Shown here: piece by piece, positions 1,203-36,320 of the stretch | Layout of the letters: every line of letters starts with the position of its first letter | Numbering within the stretch: position 1 is the stretch's first letter | IMG/VR virus record: IMGVR_UViG_3300032315_002372 | Span: 1 to 46,957 of that record | Origin: a virus | Length of the DNA stretch: 46,957 nt | Direction: 5' to 3' (one strand) | Translations under genes and position numbers: made by a program | Notes under the pieces: model-generated | Told to the model about the DNA's origin: nothing | Seen by the model: the letters and a program-made list of their open reading frames with translations, nothing else | Databases searched by the model: none

Positions 1203-2228
1203 TTACCTGATTTGGGAATCTGTCCAACCTCGTAACTTCAGCCCGACCCGAAGCTTTTCCGGGTCGGGATAGAACTCTCGCTTGCTTGGGAGTGTGATGT
1301 CGTCGCGAAGACTTTGCTTGAACCAATCCCATCCGACATCCCGAGAAAGGCGCTTGAGTTCTTCAAGCCTCGATTGGTTGATCAGCACCTTGTAGGTAGG
1401 CCCGACGCCAATCAGCCCCTTATCGAAGGCGACGTGGTGAATGACGGTTAGACAAAGGCCATTCGACAACGAGTCGGTGCCATCCTTGTGCTCAACCGGG
1501 ACTATGTGGGCCGCCTCGATCATGTCGATGTCGTACCCGCTGATAGCGCACCGACGCTGGTAGGCCCCAATGACGTTGGTCCTGAATCTGGCGTCCCGCA
1601 CCTTTCTCTGAAGTTCAACGAGCTTCACCTTTCTCGGACCCTCCGGGATGTCCTTGATCGGGGCCTCGATGTCCTGGCCTACGATTTCTTTGACCACGGG
1701 AGCATCTCCGCCAGCCTCCGGCGTGTTGTGCAAAGTGGCCCACTCAGCAAGATAGGCAGATAGATAGTCGGGCCGGATTGCGACGACGGTTTCTGCATAC
1801 TGGTTTTGCGCATAAGCAAGTCCTGACGATTGAGCCTGTATCAGCGCGGTTTGGGGAACCTGCATGGAAGGCGAACTCCGATGAGCGAAGTCAGTGTCCG
1901 CGTGTCTCGAGTATTCCCAGGCGGCGAAGACTTCGTAGGTGGGACTCCACCCGAAGATGAACGTCGTCGCCCCAGGCACATTTAGAAACCTGCCGGGGAC
2001 TCCCGTGATTTGGATCCGCTGCTCGTGGGCGGGGCGATGCTGTCCGCCGCCGTGAGTGATCTGCCAGATGTAGAACAAGGCCTTCAACCTTCGCTCGCCG
2101 AACGAGAAGCTAATCAGTACCGGATGTTCACGATTGAGGACAATTGCGGTGCCTCCGCAAAGTCGGGCGGAGGCAACAATTTGATCAACGAGCTTGGACT
2201 TTTGCGGGCTCAGCGTCATTCCGCTCAC
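1203..2228 (-). CDS. HNH-type restriction endonuclease
   Basis: 341 residues. The C-terminal third contains an HNH_2-type nuclease: RRCAISGYDIDMIEAAHIVP, then a conserved D, NGLCL, IHH and AFDKG, with the His in AAHI as the probable general base. The N-terminal two thirds are unrecognised and probably recognise DNA. Start GTG at 2228 shares one base with the TAG stop of the methyltransferase upstream (TAGTG), so the two are translationally coupled; an in-frame ATG lies at 2219. Partner and context make it the cleaving half of a type II restriction-modification system at the attL edge of the prophage. Likely role: protection of the lysogen against other phages. The cut site cannot be read from sequence. 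Confidence 0.8.
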   Translation of the reverse strand: MSGMTLSPQKSKLVDQIVASARLCGGTAIVLNREHPVLISFSFGERRLKALFYIWQITHGGGQHRPAHEQRIQITGVPGRFLNVPGATTFIFGWSPTYEVFAAWEYSRHADTDFAHRSSPSMQVPQTALIQAQSSGLAYAQNQYAETVVAIRPDYLSAYLAEWATLHNTPEAGGDAPVVKEIVGQDIEAPIKDIPEGPRKVKLVELQRKVRDARFRTNVIGAYQRRCAISGYDIDMIEAAHIVPVEHKDGTDSLSNGLCLTVIHHVAFDKGLIGVGPTYKVLINQSRLEELKRLSRDVGWDWFKQSLRDDITLPSKREFYPDPEKLRVGLKLRGWTDSQIR

Positions 2229-29282: not shown

Positions 29283-30221
29283 TCAGTTGGCATGAAGGTC
29301 CAGATCGGGGGTCCCGCCCCGGCCATGGGAACGTTGGGTGTCCTGGACAGCGACAATCTCCGCGCGAAGGTGCGCGTCCCGGATGATCCACCGGGCGGGA
29401 TCCGGGTCCATGCTCGCGGCATAGATCGCGTTCAGGCACACGTTTCGGATGTCGCCTCCCGACAATCCCCTCGACGCCATGGCCAGCGTGCGGAGGTCGG
29501 CTGCGACCCGGTCCCCGCTCGGCAAATGGAGCCGGAACAGGGCCTCCCGTTGCTGCCAGTCCGGCAACCGGAATTCAACGTGGCGGGTGATCCTCCGAAG
29601 CATCGCGGGGTCGTAGTTTTGGAAGAGGTTTGTCGTCAGGACGACGACCCCGTTGAAGCGGTCCAGCTCGGCCATCAGCGTGTTCCGGTTCTGGTTGATG
29701 CTGGAGGAGCACGATTCCCCGGCCGGCACCCGTTTGCTCACGAGGCTGTCCGCCTCGTCGAGGAACAGAACGGCACCCTCTTCGGCAGCTTCGTCGAAGG
29801 CGCGGACGATGTGCTTGGCGGTGTCGCCAAGGAATTTCGAGACGACGGCCGAATAGTCGACCCGGAACAGCGGGCGGTTCAGTCGCCGGGCGATCGCACC
29901 TGCGGTCATGGTCTTCCCGGTCCCCGGAGGGCCGTAGAAATTCAGGACACACCGGCCCGCGTTCGGCTCGATCCGGGACAGGCCCCATACCGCTTCGAGC
30001 TGGTCCGCCACGAGGAACCGGTGGAGGGCGATTTCGACACTCTGCCGGATCTCGTTCGACAGGATCATCCGGTCAAGATCGTGACGCTCATCGGGTGACT
30101 CAAGGGTGCCGACCTCGGTCGCGGCACCATTCCGGCGTCCCCGTCGGGGATTGCGATGGGCTTCCTGTTCAGCCTCACGGCGAGGTAGTTCTACTTCTTC
30201 GTTTTCGTTTTCGTTGGGCAT
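29283..30221 (-). CDS. AAA+ ATPase
   Basis: 312 residues. Walker A GPPGTGKT (97-104), Walker B VLFLDEAD (151-158), sensor-1 TTN (196-198) and an arginine-finger region MLRRITRH (208-214) define an AAA+ ATPase of the classical (CDC48/FtsH-like) clade. The N-terminal 45 residues are highly charged and disordered-looking, likely a substrate- or partner-binding tail. There is no protease or other C-terminal effector domain. Neighbouring genes (amidoligase, amidotransferase, RadC/JAB-like protein) suggest that it remodels a modified protein or complex. The ATG lies 22 bases after a short leader ORF in repeat copy A. Confidence 0.85.
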   Translation of the reverse strand: MPNENENEEVELPRREAEQEAHRNPRRGRRNGAATEVGTLESPDERHDLDRMILSNEIRQSVEIALHRFLVADQLEAVWGLSRIEPNAGRCVLNFYGPPGTGKTMTAGAIARRLNRPLFRVDYSAVVSKFLGDTAKHIVRAFDEAAEEGAVLFLDEADSLVSKRVPAGESCSSSINQNRNTLMAELDRFNGVVVLTTNLFQNYDPAMLRRITRHVEFRLPDWQQREALFRLHLPSGDRVAADLRTLAMASRGLSGGDIRNVCLNAIYAASMDPDPARWIIRDAHLRAEIVAVQDTQRSHGRGGTPDLDLHAN

Positions 30222-30240: not shown

Positions 30241-30318
30241 GTTCAGGCCACACGCGAGCAGCCAACTGCGGAACCCTCAAAACCAAATCCTTCACTGAGG
30301 TTCATTTTGTTTCCTCAG
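30241..30318 (-). repeat. Start-associated repeat, copy A
   Basis: About 75 bp, upstream of the AAA+ gene. It shares with copies B-D the blocks CTGAGGAAACAAAATGAACC, GAAGGATTTGGTTTTGAGGG and GGCTGCTCGCGTGTGG (transcribed strand). This copy has lost one base in the last block (GGCC in place of GGGCAT), which turns the conserved ATG into TGA, so its open frame closes as a separate leader peptide. Confidence 0.8.
30243..30305 (-). CDS. 20-residue leader peptide ORF (repeat copy A)
   Basis: ATG 30305 overlaps the TGA of the zinc-ribbon gene and has GAGGA as ribosome site. It encodes MNLSEGFGFEG and continues to CSRVA, then stops 21 bases before the AAA+ start. The same frame is open in repeat copies B, C and D, where it runs on into the next gene. 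Whether the peptide matters, or only the translation of the leader, is unknown. Confidence 0.4.
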   Translation of the reverse strand: MNLSEGFGFEGSAVGCSRVA

Positions 30319-30619
30319 GTGCAGAGCCGCCCCGGTCGAGCAGCTCGTTGTACGCCTCGGTTTCTTCGAGGCACTTCGGGCAAAGCTGGCCCTCCATCTC
30401 GCAGGCCTTGAAGGGCTCGTTGCAGCAGACGCAGCGGAACCGGATCTCGCGCATCCAGGCGTCCTTGTCGGCGGCGAGCCCGAGGAGGTCGACCGGGATC
30501 CGGGTGATCTCCCTGCCGCAGATCATGGCGAAGCGTTCGCCGGACTCCCGGTTTCGCACGATGGACACGACGACTTCCTTTCCGTCCACGAGGAACCGCT
30601 GATCTTTGGTCGAGTTCAT
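30302..30619 (-). CDS. Small zinc-ribbon protein
   Basis: 105 residues. The C-terminal half has paired cysteines CVCC (about 63-66) and CPKC (about 80-83) around NEPFKACEMEGQL, a treble-clef or zinc-ribbon arrangement. The N-terminal half is a small beta region (FLVDGKEVVVSIVRN; GREITRIPVDLLG). Such mini zinc proteins are frequent in phage accessory operons and may bind DNA or protein. Its stop overlaps the leader ORF of repeat copy A. Confidence 0.65.
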   Translation of the reverse strand: MNSTKDQRFLVDGKEVVVSIVRNRESGERFAMICGREITRIPVDLLGLAADKDAWMREIRFRCVCCNEPFKACEMEGQLCPKCLEETEAYNELLDRGGSAPEETK

Positions 30620-30628
30620 GGCGATTGC

Positions 30629-31216
30629 TCAAAGAAGTTCCTCCTGCTCGGGCTTTCCGGCTCCGGAGACAAGGAGATGGCGGGCGCTGTCCTTGTAGGG
30701 GTCGACGCAGTCCGGGTTTTCGTTCCGGATGACAGCCCCCTCGGCAAAGAAGTGGTCGAACCCCCGCTTCATCCCCCGCCCGCGGCGGGTATGCTTGTCG
30801 AGGGCGAAGTCCGGGATTTCGCGCCTGGGTCTCTGCCCCATGAAGAACACGACGCAGGCGTTGTCGACGACCCGACTCTTCTGAGCGCGAGCCAGCAGAA
30901 TGATGGCGTGCATGAACGGCAGCCGTTCCGGCTTGTGGGTGGCGTCCTTCTTGGAGGCCAAGGCCTGCCAATTCGCGTGCAGTCCGGCGATTTCAGCGAC
31001 GATCCCCGGCTGGCCAGGACCGACATCCTCGGAGCAGACGACGAGCATCCGCTTCCAGGCGTAGCCGACGTAACCGGACAGCTCCAATTCCGACCCCCAG
31101 AACAAGGCCTCCTCCTCCTCTCCGCGGCGGATGCATTTTTGGAAGGCTGAGGCGACCTCTGCCATGGCATAGCCGCCATGGGTGACGATTTCTCCGAACG
31201 ATTTGAACGTGCTCAT
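30629..31216 (-). CDS. RarA/MgsA C-terminal-domain-like protein
   Basis: 195 residues from ATG 31216. The segment AFQKCIRRGEEEEALFWGSELELSGY, then VVCSEDVGPGQPG and AIILLARAQKSRVVDNA closely follows the C-terminal (MgsA) domain of the replication-restart ATPase RarA, but there is no Walker A/B module. Stand-alone versions occur in phages and plasmids. A role in tetramerising with, or blocking, host RarA or clamp-loader proteins is conceivable (inference). Its end (EIPDFALDKHTRRGRG ... FFAEGA) is a phage-specific extension. Confidence 0.7.
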   Translation of the reverse strand: MSTFKSFGEIVTHGGYAMAEVASAFQKCIRRGEEEEALFWGSELELSGYVGYAWKRMLVVCSEDVGPGQPGIVAEIAGLHANWQALASKKDATHKPERLPFMHAIILLARAQKSRVVDNACVVFFMGQRPRREIPDFALDKHTRRGRGMKRGFDHFFAEGAVIRNENPDCVDPYKDSARHLLVSGAGKPEQEELL

Positions 31217-31241
31217 GTGTTGTGCGCTAGTAGCGTAGTTT

Positions 31242-31700
31242 TCAGGCGTGGAAAGAGGGGCGTGGGCGGACGGTGGACAGGGGCGCTGGGACGAAGTGCA
31301 TGTCGAGCTCGACGCCAATGTTGAGCGCACCGCGCAAGGAGGCGAGCTCTCGAATGTTGATGTACCCGACCTCAGCGAAGTCGCCGCAGACAAGGCCGAA
31401 GGCCAGGTCCGCGCCATCCCATTCCGTGATGTACCAAGTCCAGGATCCGGCGGGGTCGAAGAACTTCACGTAAACGGTGGCCTCATCTCCGGACTGGGAA
31501 TCGAGTCCCGTCACGCCGGAGAGGCGAAGGCATTCCTGGAACTGGGCCAGCTTCCGCGGGCCAGGGCCGACGCCGTTCTGGTACGTGGAGCCGAGACCGG
31601 GCTTCCGGTCGTCGAGGAGGGTGCAGAGCGATTTGTTCATGCCCACACGCGAGCAGCCACCTGCGGCACCCTCAAAACCAAATCCTTCACTTGGGTTCAT
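31242..31700 (-). CDS. DUF2958 protein
   Basis: The DUF2958 core is clear: VYVKFFDPAGSWTWYITEWDG, then FGLVCGDFAEVGYINIRELASLRG and LDMHFVP at the end. The domain is common in plasmids and phages near anti-restriction-type genes; its function is unknown. The ATG at 31700 has a strong ribosome site (TGAGGA) and adds the repeat-encoded N-terminus (MNPSEGFGFEG and onwards). The ATG at 31640 (MNKSLCTLL) starts where the family normally does but lacks a good ribosome site. I cannot decide between them. Confidence 0.8.
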   Translation of the reverse strand: MNPSEGFGFEGAAGGCSRVGMNKSLCTLLDDRKPGLGSTYQNGVGPGPRKLAQFQECLRLSGVTGLDSQSGDEATVYVKFFDPAGSWTWYITEWDGADLAFGLVCGDFAEVGYINIRELASLRGALNIGVELDMHFVPAPLSTVRPRPSFHA

Positions 31701-31713
31701 TTTTGTTCCTCAG
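31636..31713 (-). repeat. Start-associated repeat, copy B
   Basis: Second copy, spanning the stop of the 31710 gene, the ribosome site GAGGA, ATG 31700, the conserved 20 codons and the inner ATG 31640 of DUF2958. Compared with copy C, the 20-codon part differs at three positions, two of them synonymous (CCA/CCC, GGC/GGG; the third is GGA/AGA). Confidence 0.8.
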
Positions 31714-32060
31714 CACTGGAAGTCTTCGGTGACAACTCCCTTGGCCGTGAGCGTATAGATTGGGAAGGCTCCAACTCTCGCTGCATTGAGGCGGGCAACT
31801 GCGGAGACTGGATCCACGCCCGGCTTCAATGTAGTCCGGTAGAACTTCTGCTTCCCGCCGAAGGGGTGCCGGATTGTCTTGAACAGCTTGTCGCTTTCGA
31901 CAACCGCTTCAATGGCTTCCCAAAGGTACTCTCTTCTCTGCGGTGCTACGTTCGGTGAGACAGCCCCGACCGACTTGATTTCTGTTGGCTTCGTTTTCAT
32001 GCCCACACGCGAGCACCCACCTGCGGCACCCTCAAAACCAAATCTTTCACTGGGGTTCAT
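31710..32060 (-). CDS. Hypothetical protein with repeat-encoded N-terminus
   Basis: 116 residues from ATG 32060 (ribosome site GAGGA), or 96 residues from ATG 32000 (MKTKPTEIKSVG). The body has an amphipathic helix (RREYLWEAIEAVVESDKLFKTI) and a beta-rich C-terminus (KFYRTTLKPGVD ... FPIYTLTAKGVV). No family recognised. It shares the start-associated repeat with DUF2958 and RadC, so the three may be co-regulated. Confidence 0.6.
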   Translation of the reverse strand: MNPSERFGFEGAAGGCSRVGMKTKPTEIKSVGAVSPNVAPQRREYLWEAIEAVVESDKLFKTIRHPFGGKQKFYRTTLKPGVDPVSAVARLNAARVGAFPIYTLTAKGVVTEDFQC

Positions 32061-32073
32061 TTTGTTTCCTCAG
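31996..32073 (-). repeat. Start-associated repeat, copy C
   Basis: Third copy, between the RadC-like gene (its TGA at 32070 is part of the TGAGGA ribosome site) and the hypothetical gene at 31710. It is the closest match to copy B, in the same spacing and frame. Confidence 0.8.
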
Positions 32074-32579
32074 TTGATGATGCCAATTTCCCGTAGGCTG
32101 ACCCATCCGCGGAGGTTCTCGGGCCCCGGTCGGCCCATGATCAGGTGATCGAGGATTTCGAGCCGCAACACTTGGCCAGCCCTCACCAGGTCGCGGGTCA
32201 CTCTCACGTCGGCTTCGCTCGGGGTTGGGTTCCCGCTGGGGTGGTTATGGATTAGAACGATGCCATGGGCGTTGGCCATGATGGCGGCCCGGAAGACCTC
32301 TCTGGGGTGGACATGCACAGCATCGAGCAACCCAATCGAGACGAGGGAATGCCCAACAACATGCCTCTTGGTCGACAGCATCAGGACGTGGAAATGCTCC
32401 TGCCCTTCCCGGAACAGAGGATCCGACCCGATGTGGGTCTGCCAGTAGGCGGCGGTGGATTCCGGGGTCGAGCAGGTTATACGTTCGGTAGTGGGTGCTG
32501 GCGTCTCGCAGAGCACGAGACTTTCGGACCGGACAATGACTTCGCGGATTCTCCTGCGGGCGACTTTCAACGTCTTCAT
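32070..32579 (-). CDS. RadC-like JAB-domain protein
   Basis: 169 residues from ATG 32579. The JAB metallo-motif is intact: HNHPSG (His111, His113) with Asp124 ten residues on, and an upstream conserved Glu in HPREVFRAAI. The RadC family segment LIHNHPSGNPTPSEAD is textbook. RadC-type proteins are common on mobile elements; proposed roles include DNA repair and peptidase action, none settled. Longer in-frame starts (GTG 32639, ATG 32657) would add the repeat-encoded peptide. Confidence 0.85.
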   Translation of the reverse strand: MKTLKVARRRIREVIVRSESLVLCETPAPTTERITCSTPESTAAYWQTHIGSDPLFREGQEHFHVLMLSTKRHVVGHSLVSIGLLDAVHVHPREVFRAAIMANAHGIVLIHNHPSGNPTPSEADVRVTRDLVRAGQVLRLEILDHLIMGRPGPENLRGWVSLREIGIIN

Positions 32580-32645
32580 GCCCGCACGCGAGCAGTCACC
32601 CTCGGCAGGCCAAAAACCAAATCTTTCACCCCTGTTCACTTTGTG
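32575..32645 (-). repeat. Start-associated repeat, copy D (diverged)
   Basis: Fourth copy, in front of the RadC-like gene. It keeps GAAAGATTTGGTTTTT and TGCTCGCGTGCGGGCATG, but the ribosome site is degenerate (CTCGGGTCACAAA) and the first codon is GTG. The frame remains open into the inner ATG 32579. Confidence 0.7.
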
Positions 32646-32660
32646 ACCCGAGGCCACAAC

Positions 32661-33437
32661 TCACCAAGGCATGTGAAGCGTCACCTTCGTGATTCCCGCA
32701 TAGTCCGCCTTTCGAAGGCCGCGGGTCGAGTTCACCTTCAGGACGCCGCCGTTCGCCACCAGTCCCCACTTCCGGACGAGGATCTTGAGGTCGTTGTCCT
32801 CGGTCTCTGAGTTCCGCAAGCCGGCCTGTCCGCCTGGGGAAGTGAACGTGTCGCCGAACATCAGGCAGTAGCGGTCGTTGCGGAAACACCGTCGGTGCCG
32901 GTAAGCGTTCAGCGCCGACAGGTCGTAGTCCATCTTCCCGACCAGGCGTTCGTCGTTCCGCAGGTTGTGTCCCCGGAGGAATCCCTGAGTGGCACCGAGC
33001 ACGAACCCGGACAGCGCGAACGGCTTCAACCCGGTGTAGAATCGGATGCCGGTCTGGTTCGGAGCGAACCCGAACAGGTAGCACCCGGCGTCAGCCGCCA
33101 TGCGGGCGGTGCCGTCGATGATCTCGTGGACGAGATCCGGATCCTCGACCTTGGCCTTCTCGCCGAGGTTGGTGAAGCACCGGGCCATGTAGAGGACGTC
33201 ATCGTCCATCACCATGAAGGCCGGCTCACCCTCCATCTGCCGGTACATCCAGTTGAGCTTTGGGGCGAGCCCGCGGACGCTGTCGGGGTGCGGGAGCAGG
33301 CTGCTCCGGGGCACCGTCTGGGCGTACTCCTCCACCTGGCTCTCCGGGATGCACACCAGGCACTCCCGCAGCATCCGGTGGGTTGTGATCGTTTTCGCCC
33401 GCGACATCGAGGGCACGACGATTTTGACGTAGGGCAT
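32661..33437 (-). CDS. TET-associated-type glycosyltransferase (GT-A-like)
   Basis: 258 residues from ATG 33437. The N-terminus VKIVVPSMSRAKTITTHRML, a segment resembling LVCIPESQVEEYAQ, and the metal-binding triad in MVMDDDVLYM (Asp78-80) follow the pattern of phage TET-associated glycosyltransferases, a family proposed to glycosylate modified bases in phage DNA. No TET/JBP dioxygenase or hydroxymethylase is visible in the window, so the acceptor could instead be protein or surface glycan. The first 212 bases overlap the ParB-like gene in another frame. Confidence 0.6.
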   Translation of the reverse strand: MPYVKIVVPSMSRAKTITTHRMLRECLVCIPESQVEEYAQTVPRSSLLPHPDSVRGLAPKLNWMYRQMEGEPAFMVMDDDVLYMARCFTNLGEKAKVEDPDLVHEIIDGTARMAADAGCYLFGFAPNQTGIRFYTGLKPFALSGFVLGATQGFLRGHNLRNDERLVGKMDYDLSALNAYRHRRCFRNDRYCLMFGDTFTSPGGQAGLRNSETEDNDLKILVRKWGLVANGGVLKVNSTRGLRKADYAGITKVTLHMPW

Positions 33438-34089: not shown

Positions 34090-34584
34090 TCATCGGCGCA
34101 GAAGACTCCTTCCATCATCAACAGGCGCAGCGCAGCGAGCGTTTGCGCGGCCATCCCCGGCGCTGGGAGCGGCCTTCCTGCTCGTTTGATCCGTCCGGGG
34201 TGGCAGGATAGGCCTGAAGACGATCCAGCGGAAGAGAGCGAAGTTCCACGCGATGCCGACGGCCATGGCCGCGAGCTTCGCGAGGTTCGCAGGTCCGACG
34301 GCGACAGCGCCGACGAGCTCGACCGCCGCGGCGAGAACACCGACCTGTACTCCGTACGCGCCAACGATCGTCACCAGGCCGAAGCGCAACGCCTGGCTCG
34401 ATGGCTGGCCGCTCGCTCGGAAGGCCCGACGCTGGCCGATGAAGGACAGAGGGAGGATGATCGAGGTTGAGGCAGCGTGCGCAGGTCCAACACCAATGCC
34501 CAGCGACAGGCCCCAGTTGAACAGGGCGATGTCGAGGGCGGTGGTAAGCGTGCCGACCAGGGCGAAGCGAACGAGGGTGTTCAC
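34090..34584 (-). CDS. gtrA: GtrA-family flippase
   Basis: 164 residues with four predicted transmembrane helices: FALVGTLTTALDIALFN, AASTSIILPLSFIGQRRAF, FGLVTIVGAYGVQVGVL, and LAKLAAMAVGIAWNFALFRW with the family ending WNFALxRxxVF. GtrA proteins move undecaprenyl-phosphate-linked sugars across the membrane in phage serotype-conversion loci. It is translationally coupled (ATGA) to the glycosyltransferase fusion upstream. The C-terminal 35 residues are basic and unusual. Infer lysogenic conversion of surface glycan. Confidence 0.85.
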   Translation of the reverse strand: MNTLVRFALVGTLTTALDIALFNWGLSLGIGVGPAHAASTSIILPLSFIGQRRAFRASGQPSSQALRFGLVTIVGAYGVQVGVLAAAVELVGAVAVGPANLAKLAAMAVGIAWNFALFRWIVFRPILPPRTDQTSRKAAPSAGDGRANARCAAPVDDGRSLLRR

Positions 34585-36320
34585 AGGCCGAGCAGCTTGA
34601 GAACGGTGGGCCGGGGCGGTTCAGGAAAGATCGGGACCGTGGGCAGGGCAAGGAGCGAGGCTTGCCCACGTTGGGCAATCAGTACGTAGCCGTTGGTAGA
34701 TACGTAGCGGGACTGCTCGCCCGTGAGAACCAGCATCTCGGGATGCAGCCGTTCGATGACGTTCGACTGGGCTCGATAGTTGAAGCCCCTCCAGACCCTC
34801 TTGAAGGGGACGATCATCAGGGCAGGATCCGGAGCAACACCGGTGGAGAGGTACACCTGTGGAATGGTCGAGTAGAGCGTCGCAGGTTTCGCCTTCCGGA
34901 TCATCGGGACGAAGTCGGCTGCATAGACATCCCACGGGTCCGTAGAGCTGCGGCTTCGATTGATGTGGAAACCCACAAGGACGAGCGAGGCAATACAGGT
35001 GAGTACGATCATCCAGCGGGAGCGGATGCCCCACACAGCCAAGGCCGCGCCCGGAATCCAGAAGTGCAGATGGTAGTAGCCCCAAGCGGGCTGGTGGACG
35101 CTGAGAACTACGACAGCGAAAGCGAGGCTGCCGACCCAAAGGCCGAAGCCCCGCCGCCCAAGTCCGATGATGGCGAGCGCGCCGATGAGCCCAGCGGAGG
35201 CAGCCTGCCAAGCCTCCCAGACGATCGGCCCTGGCGGCCGGGCGGTGTGCGAATCAAGGAATGCAGTCCAGTTGTGCCCAGGGGGCAAGAAACAGAGGCC
35301 GAGGAAGGTTCCGGCAGCGGAAGCCCCGAGGATCGAAGCGGGGACGGCTCCGGATTGAGCGGCGAGCACTGCGACAGGGACCAAACCGAAGGCAGCAGTG
35401 AACTTGAGCTGAAGAGCCAGAGCGGCGATTGAGCCGCTGAGAACGAGCTTCCAAGTCTTTCGATCTCCGAGGAGGAGCGGAATAGAGGCGAGTGAAGCGA
35501 GACCAACGGCGGGCCCCTCCATAGTCATCGAGGTGAGCAACTCGAAGGCTCCGACTTGGGCGAACACGAGGAGGGAGAAGACGGCGGTGAGGTGAGCGAG
35601 CCCGTGCCTGCGAAGCATGAGTCCGACGACGAGCGGAATTGGGACGGTGAGTGCGAAGGTGATCGAGCGCAGGACGTGAATCTCGCCGCTTCCGTTGGAG
35701 AAGAGGGAAACAATCTGAGTGAAGATCCAGCCTTGGTCGTTCCACGCCTGGGATGCTGCGGACGGATTGAACCGAAGGAGGGCGAGCTTCGACGCTTCGA
35801 GAGCCTCGTCGCCCCCGATGGCCTTGCCGACGTTCAGGTAGATGGAGGCGGACCCGAGCAGGATCCACGCAAAAACACCAATTCCGACCCCGACCTTGCC
35901 ATCCGGGGCCTTCGTCTCGGGGGCCGTGGGGGAATGTTCAAAGCGGGTGAGCCACGCGAGGGTCAGGAGGAGCAGGAGGGTCAGCCCATCAGCGTGAAGC
36001 TCGATCCACGGAAACCAGTCAAGCAGTCGGCCGAGGCATTTGCACGGCTCTTTGATGTCCGCGTAAATGCGTACGGAATGGTAGAGGGAGAGTCCGACGA
36101 GGAAGCTTCGGAGTGCGATGATGGGAACTGACCCGGGCCGGAGAAGGATGAAAGCCAGAGCGAGTTCAACAATCGCAGCCAACGCGGCAACGGCCCAGTT
36201 CTGGACCTGAAGAACCTGGTTGTAGTCTGAGAGCCATTTCGAACCGTGGAAAAGGCCGATAATCTTCAGGAGGGCGGTCGCTGCCAAGAGTCCGGCAGCG
36301 ACCGCTCGGGATGCGCTCAT
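34581..36320 (-). CDS. Fusion of MauE/DoxX-like redox domain with GT-C glycosyltransferase
   Basis: 579 residues, about 13 membrane segments. Residues 1-125 form a four-helix MauE/DoxX-like domain with the cysteine motif CKCLG (93-97) after a helix ending HSVRIYADIKEP; in MauE proteins this motif is tied to disulfide formation in exported partners. From about 150 onwards it is a GT39/ArnT-like GT-C transferase: DEALEA (Asp171-Glu172, the catalytic DE motif), WNDQGW (193-198), many helices and a soluble C-terminal domain ending in LKLLGL. Likely substrate: a polyprenyl-phosphate sugar supplied through GtrA. The fusion is unusual. Confidence 0.7.
   Translation of the reverse strand: MSASRAVAAGLLAATALLKIIGLFHGSKWLSDYNQVLQVQNWAVAALAAIVELALAFILLRPGSVPIIALRSFLVGLSLYHSVRIYADIKEPCKCLGRLLDWFPWIELHADGLTLLLLLTLAWLTRFEHSPTAPETKAPDGKVGVGIGVFAWILLGSASIYLNVGKAIGGDEALEASKLALLRFNPSAASQAWNDQGWIFTQIVSLFSNGSGEIHVLRSITFALTVPIPLVVGLMLRRHGLAHLTAVFSLLVFAQVGAFELLTSMTMEGPAVGLASLASIPLLLGDRKTWKLVLSGSIAALALQLKFTAAFGLVPVAVLAAQSGAVPASILGASAAGTFLGLCFLPPGHNWTAFLDSHTARPPGPIVWEAWQAASAGLIGALAIIGLGRRGFGLWVGSLAFAVVVLSVHQPAWGYYHLHFWIPGAALAVWGIRSRWMIVLTCIASLVLVGFHINRSRSSTDPWDVYAADFVPMIRKAKPATLYSTIPQVYLSTGVAPDPALMIVPFKRVWRGFNYRAQSNVIERLHPEMLVLTGEQSRYVSTNGYVLIAQRGQASLLALPTVPIFPEPPRPTVLKLLGL

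Follow-up and report, generated by a model that had tools for sequence, protein, structure and literature searches.

Introduction

Joints between phage mosaic modules usually lack recognisable seams, and illegitimate recombination is often assumed for this reason. Boundary sequences have reportedly been proposed for lambdoid phages. Rickettsia palindromic elements (RPEs) are short, palindromic sequences that insert inside genes and are readable in frame with their host genes. In T4-type phages, PeSLs are said to have been described by Arbiol et al. in 2010 as mobile regulatory cassettes carrying an early promoter and a stem-loop. Short conserved boundary sequences have been proposed as a basis of phage mosaicism and are discussed together with the Island3/Brujita repeat, a sequence of ~50-60 bp that lies at gene 3' ends and encodes shared C-termini (PMC3029335). 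The start-associated SAS repeats of Cluster K mycobacteriophages are 13 nt long (GGGATAGGAGCCC), contain a Shine-Dalgarno (SD) core, occur in 11-19 copies, and have no known function; they are often accompanied by 17-nt imperfect inverted repeats upstream, the combination being called Extended SAS (ESAS) (PMC3203893).

Here, we describe a repeated element in the IMG/VR virus record IMGVR_UViG_3300032315_002372, which was analysed over its full length of 46,957 nt (hereafter, the window) and has phage tail, terminase, portal, and integrase genes. A first-pass annotation of the window had reported four repeats of about 75 bp at gene starts, each with an open frame of 20 codons, and had raised the possibility of a selected peptide or shared N-terminal tag. 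We examined the anatomy and distribution of the element, the conservation of its frame, the start codons of the genes behind it, and the gain and loss of those genes.

Results

Copies of the element in the window and in a relative

The whole-record search recovered one element of 73-78 nt in exactly four copies, all on the minus strand and none elsewhere, at the four places first annotated (30241, 31636, 31996, and 32575):

Copy A, 30241..30318, minus strand: outer ATG 30303-30305; 20 codons; TGA 30243-30245; without a fused gene
Copy B, 31636..31713, minus strand: before the DUF2958 gene; outer ATG 31698-31700, inner ATG 31638-31640
Copy C, 31996..32073, minus strand: before the 116-aa gene; outer ATG 32058-32060, inner ATG 31998-32000
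Copy D, 32575..32652, minus strand: before the RadC/JAB gene; outer GTG 32637-32639, inner ATG 32577-32579

In pairwise comparison, the window copies were 74-94% identical to copy B. A 17-nt core was found three times in the window with at most three mismatches, against 0.11 expected occurrences, and a profile built from the seven known copies, these four included, recovered each window copy with E values of 1e-20 to 1e-23.

A search with the DUF2958 protein identified a relative, IMGVR_UViG_3300013132_000134 (L005), with a syntenic block and a terminase 97% identical to that of the window. L005 has three copies: L1 before RadC, L2 before DUF2958, and L3 before a 91-aa ORF at the place of copy A. 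All seven copies (four in the window, three in L005) align gap-free, and the 60 nt from the outer to the inner start are without indel. The genes around the window copies are as follows:

32661..33437, minus strand: TAGT-type glycosyltransferase on the conserved flank upstream of copy D; identity to L005, 93-94%
32070..32579, minus strand: RadC-like JAB protein, from the inner start (Pfam PF04002, E 1.6e-34; PHROG 10276)
31710..32000, minus strand: small protein of no known family in sequence searches (the 116-aa gene), from the inner start; window only
31242..31640, minus strand: DUF2958 protein, from the inner start (Pfam PF11171, E 1.4e-11)
30302..30619, minus strand: conserved 105-aa gene, 75% identical in L005; its stop and the outer start of copy A overlap in ATGA
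29283..30221, minus strand: AAA ATPase, downstream of copy A (Pfam PF00004, E 1.7e-28); its start (30221) lies ~21 nt beyond copy A

Anatomy of the element

The element occupies the whole gap between the upstream stop codon and the inner start. Copies A, B, C, and L2 begin in or just after the upstream stop codon (TGAGGA or ATGA overlap) and end at the inner start; copy B opens with the TGA that ends the 116-aa gene, and copy C with the TGA that ends radC. Copies A, B, and C carry TGAGGA-N6/7-ATG followed by the 20-codon open frame, just as first annotated, and copy D has a GTG start and no clear SD. The conserved core, GTGAARGATTTGGTTTT...CCG...TGCTCGCGT, leaves exactly 6 nt between its 3' end and the inner start codon. 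The arrangement TGCTCGCGT-N6-(A/G)TGA was present at the inner start in all six copies that have a gene, always on one strand and before unrelated genes. In the seven-copy alignment, the longer runs of invariant bases are GTGAA, GATTTGGTTTT, CCG, and TGCTCGCGT; the strings counted as core of the element are TTTGGTTTTG and TGCTCGCGT.

Folding of the element as RNA and of both its DNA strands gave no stable or common structure (z about -2 to +0.8), and there was no Rfam match. In most copies no fold went clearly beyond shuffled sequences, and 17-nt inverted repeats were absent. As a separate observation, the radC copies (window 32575-32652; L005 5345-5422) open with GGTTCACAAAGTGAAC in L005 and GGGTCACAAAGTGAAC in the window, forming a 6+3+6 palindrome across the outer GTG that the other copies do not have. 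This palindrome could be an operator.

Distribution of the element

L005 was the sole other carrier returned when IMG/VR and the GTDB genome contigs were searched for exact and degenerate DNA matches; the remaining matches were at chance level. Low-identity searches of phage records (50,697 records) and plasmid records gave no significant match to the element. A codon-degenerate search for the peptide, in which any synonymous codon was allowed at the residues FGF..A..G..CSR, returned no other viral contig. The element was present in none of the 79 loci of the terminase kin, no other start-associated repeats were seen in the nine kin blocks scanned, and RadC as a single-protein query retrieved no close relatives. 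Because only two genomes are known to carry the element, the tests of selection cover three ortholog pairs with 23 changes.

Conservation of the 20-codon frame

The 20-codon frame (frame 1) is open in 7/7 copies; in the 6/6 that precede a gene, it is in frame with that gene. The frames of copies B, C, and D continue into the inner ATG and the gene; in copy A the frame closes at its TGA with no gene fused, as had been noted. The first-pass annotation would have given up selection on the peptide had most copies in relatives shown frame-breaking indels. All three L005 copies are open and in frame, without indels of any kind, and so do not refute it on this point.

The changes within the frame tell differently. 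Between orthologs, changes at codon positions 1/2/3 numbered 6/10/7 in the element vs 145/100/333 in the gene bodies (chi-square p=0.004). Unchanged degenerate amino acids had a different codon in 2/45 cases in the element vs 255/758 in the bodies (p=9e-6; three ortholog pairs). In the fused RadC and DUF2958 tags, 0/30 identical amino acids had a different codon, and in the RadC and DUF2958 bodies 46% and 33% of identical residues did. Across the three ortholog pairs, 2/15 changed codons were synonymous and 13/15 were non-synonymous. The earlier reading that two of the three differences between copies B and C are synonymous is accurate (CCA/CCC and GGC/GGG are, GGA/AGA is not) but unrepresentative of the ortholog pairs, and the test for synonymous bias suggested alongside it came out against the peptide.

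Elsewhere in the shared genes, 15/2141 comparable 20-codon windows were without synonymous change. These synonymous-poor windows cluster at three places, two of them gene starts, and ordinary constraint near starts could therefore account for some of the low synonymous change. Divergence could likewise be low without any selection if the two lineages had recently exchanged the element. In frame 1, GC by codon position was.62/.61/.49 vs about.62/.46/.80 in genes (third position.65-.87); frame 2 fits the genes better than frame 1, yet is without third-position bias. Because the changes are flat over codon positions, synonymous codons are near zero, and the GC profile of frame 1 does not fit, what is conserved in the element is its bases and not a peptide. 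The open frame that was first annotated stands in all copies, and the sequence comparisons do not support its reading as a selected peptide or shared N-terminal tag.

Start codons of the downstream genes

In kin phages, RadC proteins 42-51% identical to that of the window are encoded at the same place without the element, and their short basic N-terminus corresponds to the inner ATG. The homologue of the 91-aa ORF in Pseudomonas phage ZRG1 begins MKTALKTSRYYASHLKAPRG with no tag upstream, which matches VKTRIDTDKYFASHLKAPRG from the inner GTG of the L005 ORF onward. Since these tag-free homologues start at the inner codon, the inner start is likely ancestral in the RadC and 91-aa families. Plasmid homologues of the DUF2958 protein align only from about residue 30-56.

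SD pairing at the inner start was -1.5 to -2.7 kcal/mol in five of the six copies and -5.7 in one, the background mean being -3.4. At the outer start it was -4.8 to -6.1 kcal/mol in the four computed among the five (of seven) copies with stop-start coupling, and -6 is within the background. Most gene starts of the window phage have weak or absent SD pairing, so TGAGGA before the outer ATG is no strong evidence of its use; the weak SD across the phage hints at a host that rarely uses SD.

Gene gain and loss at the element

Copy C together with its gene, 360 nt flush, is absent from L005. The 91-aa gene behind L3 is present in L005 and missing behind copy A, and the junction is the 3' end of the element. 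Along the block, nucleotide identity was about 0.89 upstream and 0.68 downstream of the best change-point, 32585 (support interval 32686-32565), which falls in the 3' end of copy D. The core of copy D is 43/46 identical and is flanked by a spacer of 57% and a gene start of 71% identity. The right-hand end of the block showed no clear drop in synonymous divergence.

The 5' and middle parts of copy D are nearest to L1 and its last 14 nt are nearest to the window copies, at a handful of informative sites. Homogenisation within each genome was considered for this chimeric-looking 3' end and was set aside, the sites being too few to claim it.

Discussion

Among the described systems, the Cluster K SAS, the boundary sequences, and the Island3/Brujita repeat appear closest to the element in function. 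Like SAS, the element is an asymmetric, one-orientation repeat located a few nt (3-7 in SAS, 6 here) before the starts of unrelated non-structural genes; both are restricted to one phage group and sometimes include the upstream stop codon. The resemblance to SAS that was first annotated is therefore borne out in kind. Unlike SAS, the element is ~73 nt long, has 3-4 copies and an unrelated sequence, fills the entire intergenic gap, and is without an SD before the inner start and without inverted repeats; none of the seven copies contains the SAS consensus. Judged by sequence, length, SD core, and inverted repeats, all of which mismatch, the element is not an SAS.

With boundary sequences it shares a short repeat at gene boundaries that would permit homologous exchange and the gain or loss of genes. 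Two descriptive features of such a boundary or linker are seen here, namely the recurrence of one sequence at several junctions and, at that sequence, gene turnover or breakpoints (two gene presence/absence events and one breakpoint); the element differs in recurring at several boundaries of one genome with fixed spacing to starts. In Island3/Brujita, a roughly 50-bp repeat is likewise common to neighbouring genes, and one gene is lost or gained between close relatives through the repeat, but that repeat lies at gene 3' ends and the element at gene starts. PeSLs are similar in being regulatory units between genes through which accessory genes are shuffled as modules; they differ in carrying an early promoter and a stem-loop, and no stem-loop was found in the element. 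RPEs are similar as short repeated elements readable in frame with host genes, whereas the element is neither palindromic nor inside genes.

We give about even chances to the reading that the element combines two roles, a nucleic-acid start-associated leader or linker 6 nt before the inner start and a recombination seam for accessory genes. It would then be a nucleic-acid feature of ~73 nt that spans from the stop of an accessory gene to the inner, native start of its neighbour. As a leader, it would act on the inner start at the RNA or DNA level and set how the gene behind it is expressed, in translation or in transcription. A start-associated leader is the likeliest local role because the core ends exactly 6 nt before the start. 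As a seam, the element would offer a crossover place because the same sequence precedes unrelated genes; general recombination would cross over at the element, and element-gene units would be gained, lost, or replaced flush. The 20-aa extension would be incidental even if partly translated, and a fraction of the ribosomes may well initiate at the outer codon. One conserved seam at several joints, with fixed spacing to starts, would mark the turnover of accessory genes, and an open in-frame repeat at gene starts can pass for a protein tag and cause starts to be misassigned.

Against the combined reading stand the two-genome basis of the tests, the lack of an RNA or DNA fold, the absence of a clear drop at the right-hand end of the block, and the fact that phage module breakpoints fall at gene boundaries anyway. 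Several features of the element can also be read otherwise. The absence of indels in seven copies, the open in-frame 60 nt, and the TGAGGA-N6/7-ATG or ATGA coupling in 5/7 copies are also expected of a translated leader, in which ribosomes coming off the upstream stop would restart at the outer ATG or GTG and produce fusions with a common 20-aa N-terminus that serves as a targeting, stability, or expression tag. The lack of indels mildly favours this reading, and the outer SD values agree with it, but those values lie within the background of a phage whose genes are mostly SD-weak or SD-less. It is further opposed by the lack of third-position bias, the excess of non-synonymous changes, the GC profile of frame 1, the tag-free homologues that start at the inner codon, and the occurrence of copy A without a gene; we consider it unlikely. 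Quite unlikely is a phage-specific mobile start cassette, a 73-nt unit supplying both a site for translational restart and an in-frame leader of 20 aa that is dispensable. Such a cassette would be copied before incoming genes, express them, and enable the next insertion. An out-of-frame upstream ORF (GTG AAR GAT TTG ..., VKDLV-x8-ARV-x2, TGA) may instead couple translation through its stop, which overlaps the inner start (ATGA/GTGA). This ORF occurs in 6/6 copies with a gene and has a coding-like GC by position (.69/.38/.71); however, it has no SD or good start, its changes by position (10/7/6) carry no third-position bias, and any gene with a second codon ANN yields the ATGA overlap, which makes this alternative very improbable.

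At the other extreme, the element may have no expression role and be purely a recombination linker, the repeat persisting through the homologous exchange that assembles accessory genes. Flush element-gene units that only one of the two phages has, the change-point inside copy D, and the nearness of copy D to L1 except in its last 14 nt would all follow. A crossover site, however, needs neither the strict 6-nt spacing nor the strict orientation, and recombination is read here from few informative sites; a linker of this kind is unlikely in our view. The gene-plus-site units also recall a cassette array, with the element as an integron-like attC or another structured mobile-element end. Such an end has scarcely any probability, since a consistent stem-loop is absent as RNA and on either DNA strand, no copy has a RYYYAAC/GTTRRRY core pair, Rfam gave no match, and the block contains no recombinase. 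An attC identity in particular is largely excluded, as the imperfect-palindrome stem was not found.

Other features of the window

A predicted membrane protein (window 34581-36320; L005 1673-3412) is 42% identical between the two phages and adjoins a flank of ~90% identity; this further mosaic boundary, near 34600, is without the element. Between the DUF2958 and MgsA_C-like genes, both phages have a conserved intergenic string around ACTACGCTACTAGCGCACA (window 31217-31241; L005 6406-6428). An inverted repeat related to it, GTGCGCTGATAGCGCAC, lies upstream of the amidoligase gene in L005 (about 8695). Finally, the protein encoded at window 1203-2228 has a methylase-associated X1 domain and an HNH nuclease domain and is possibly a restriction-like enzyme.
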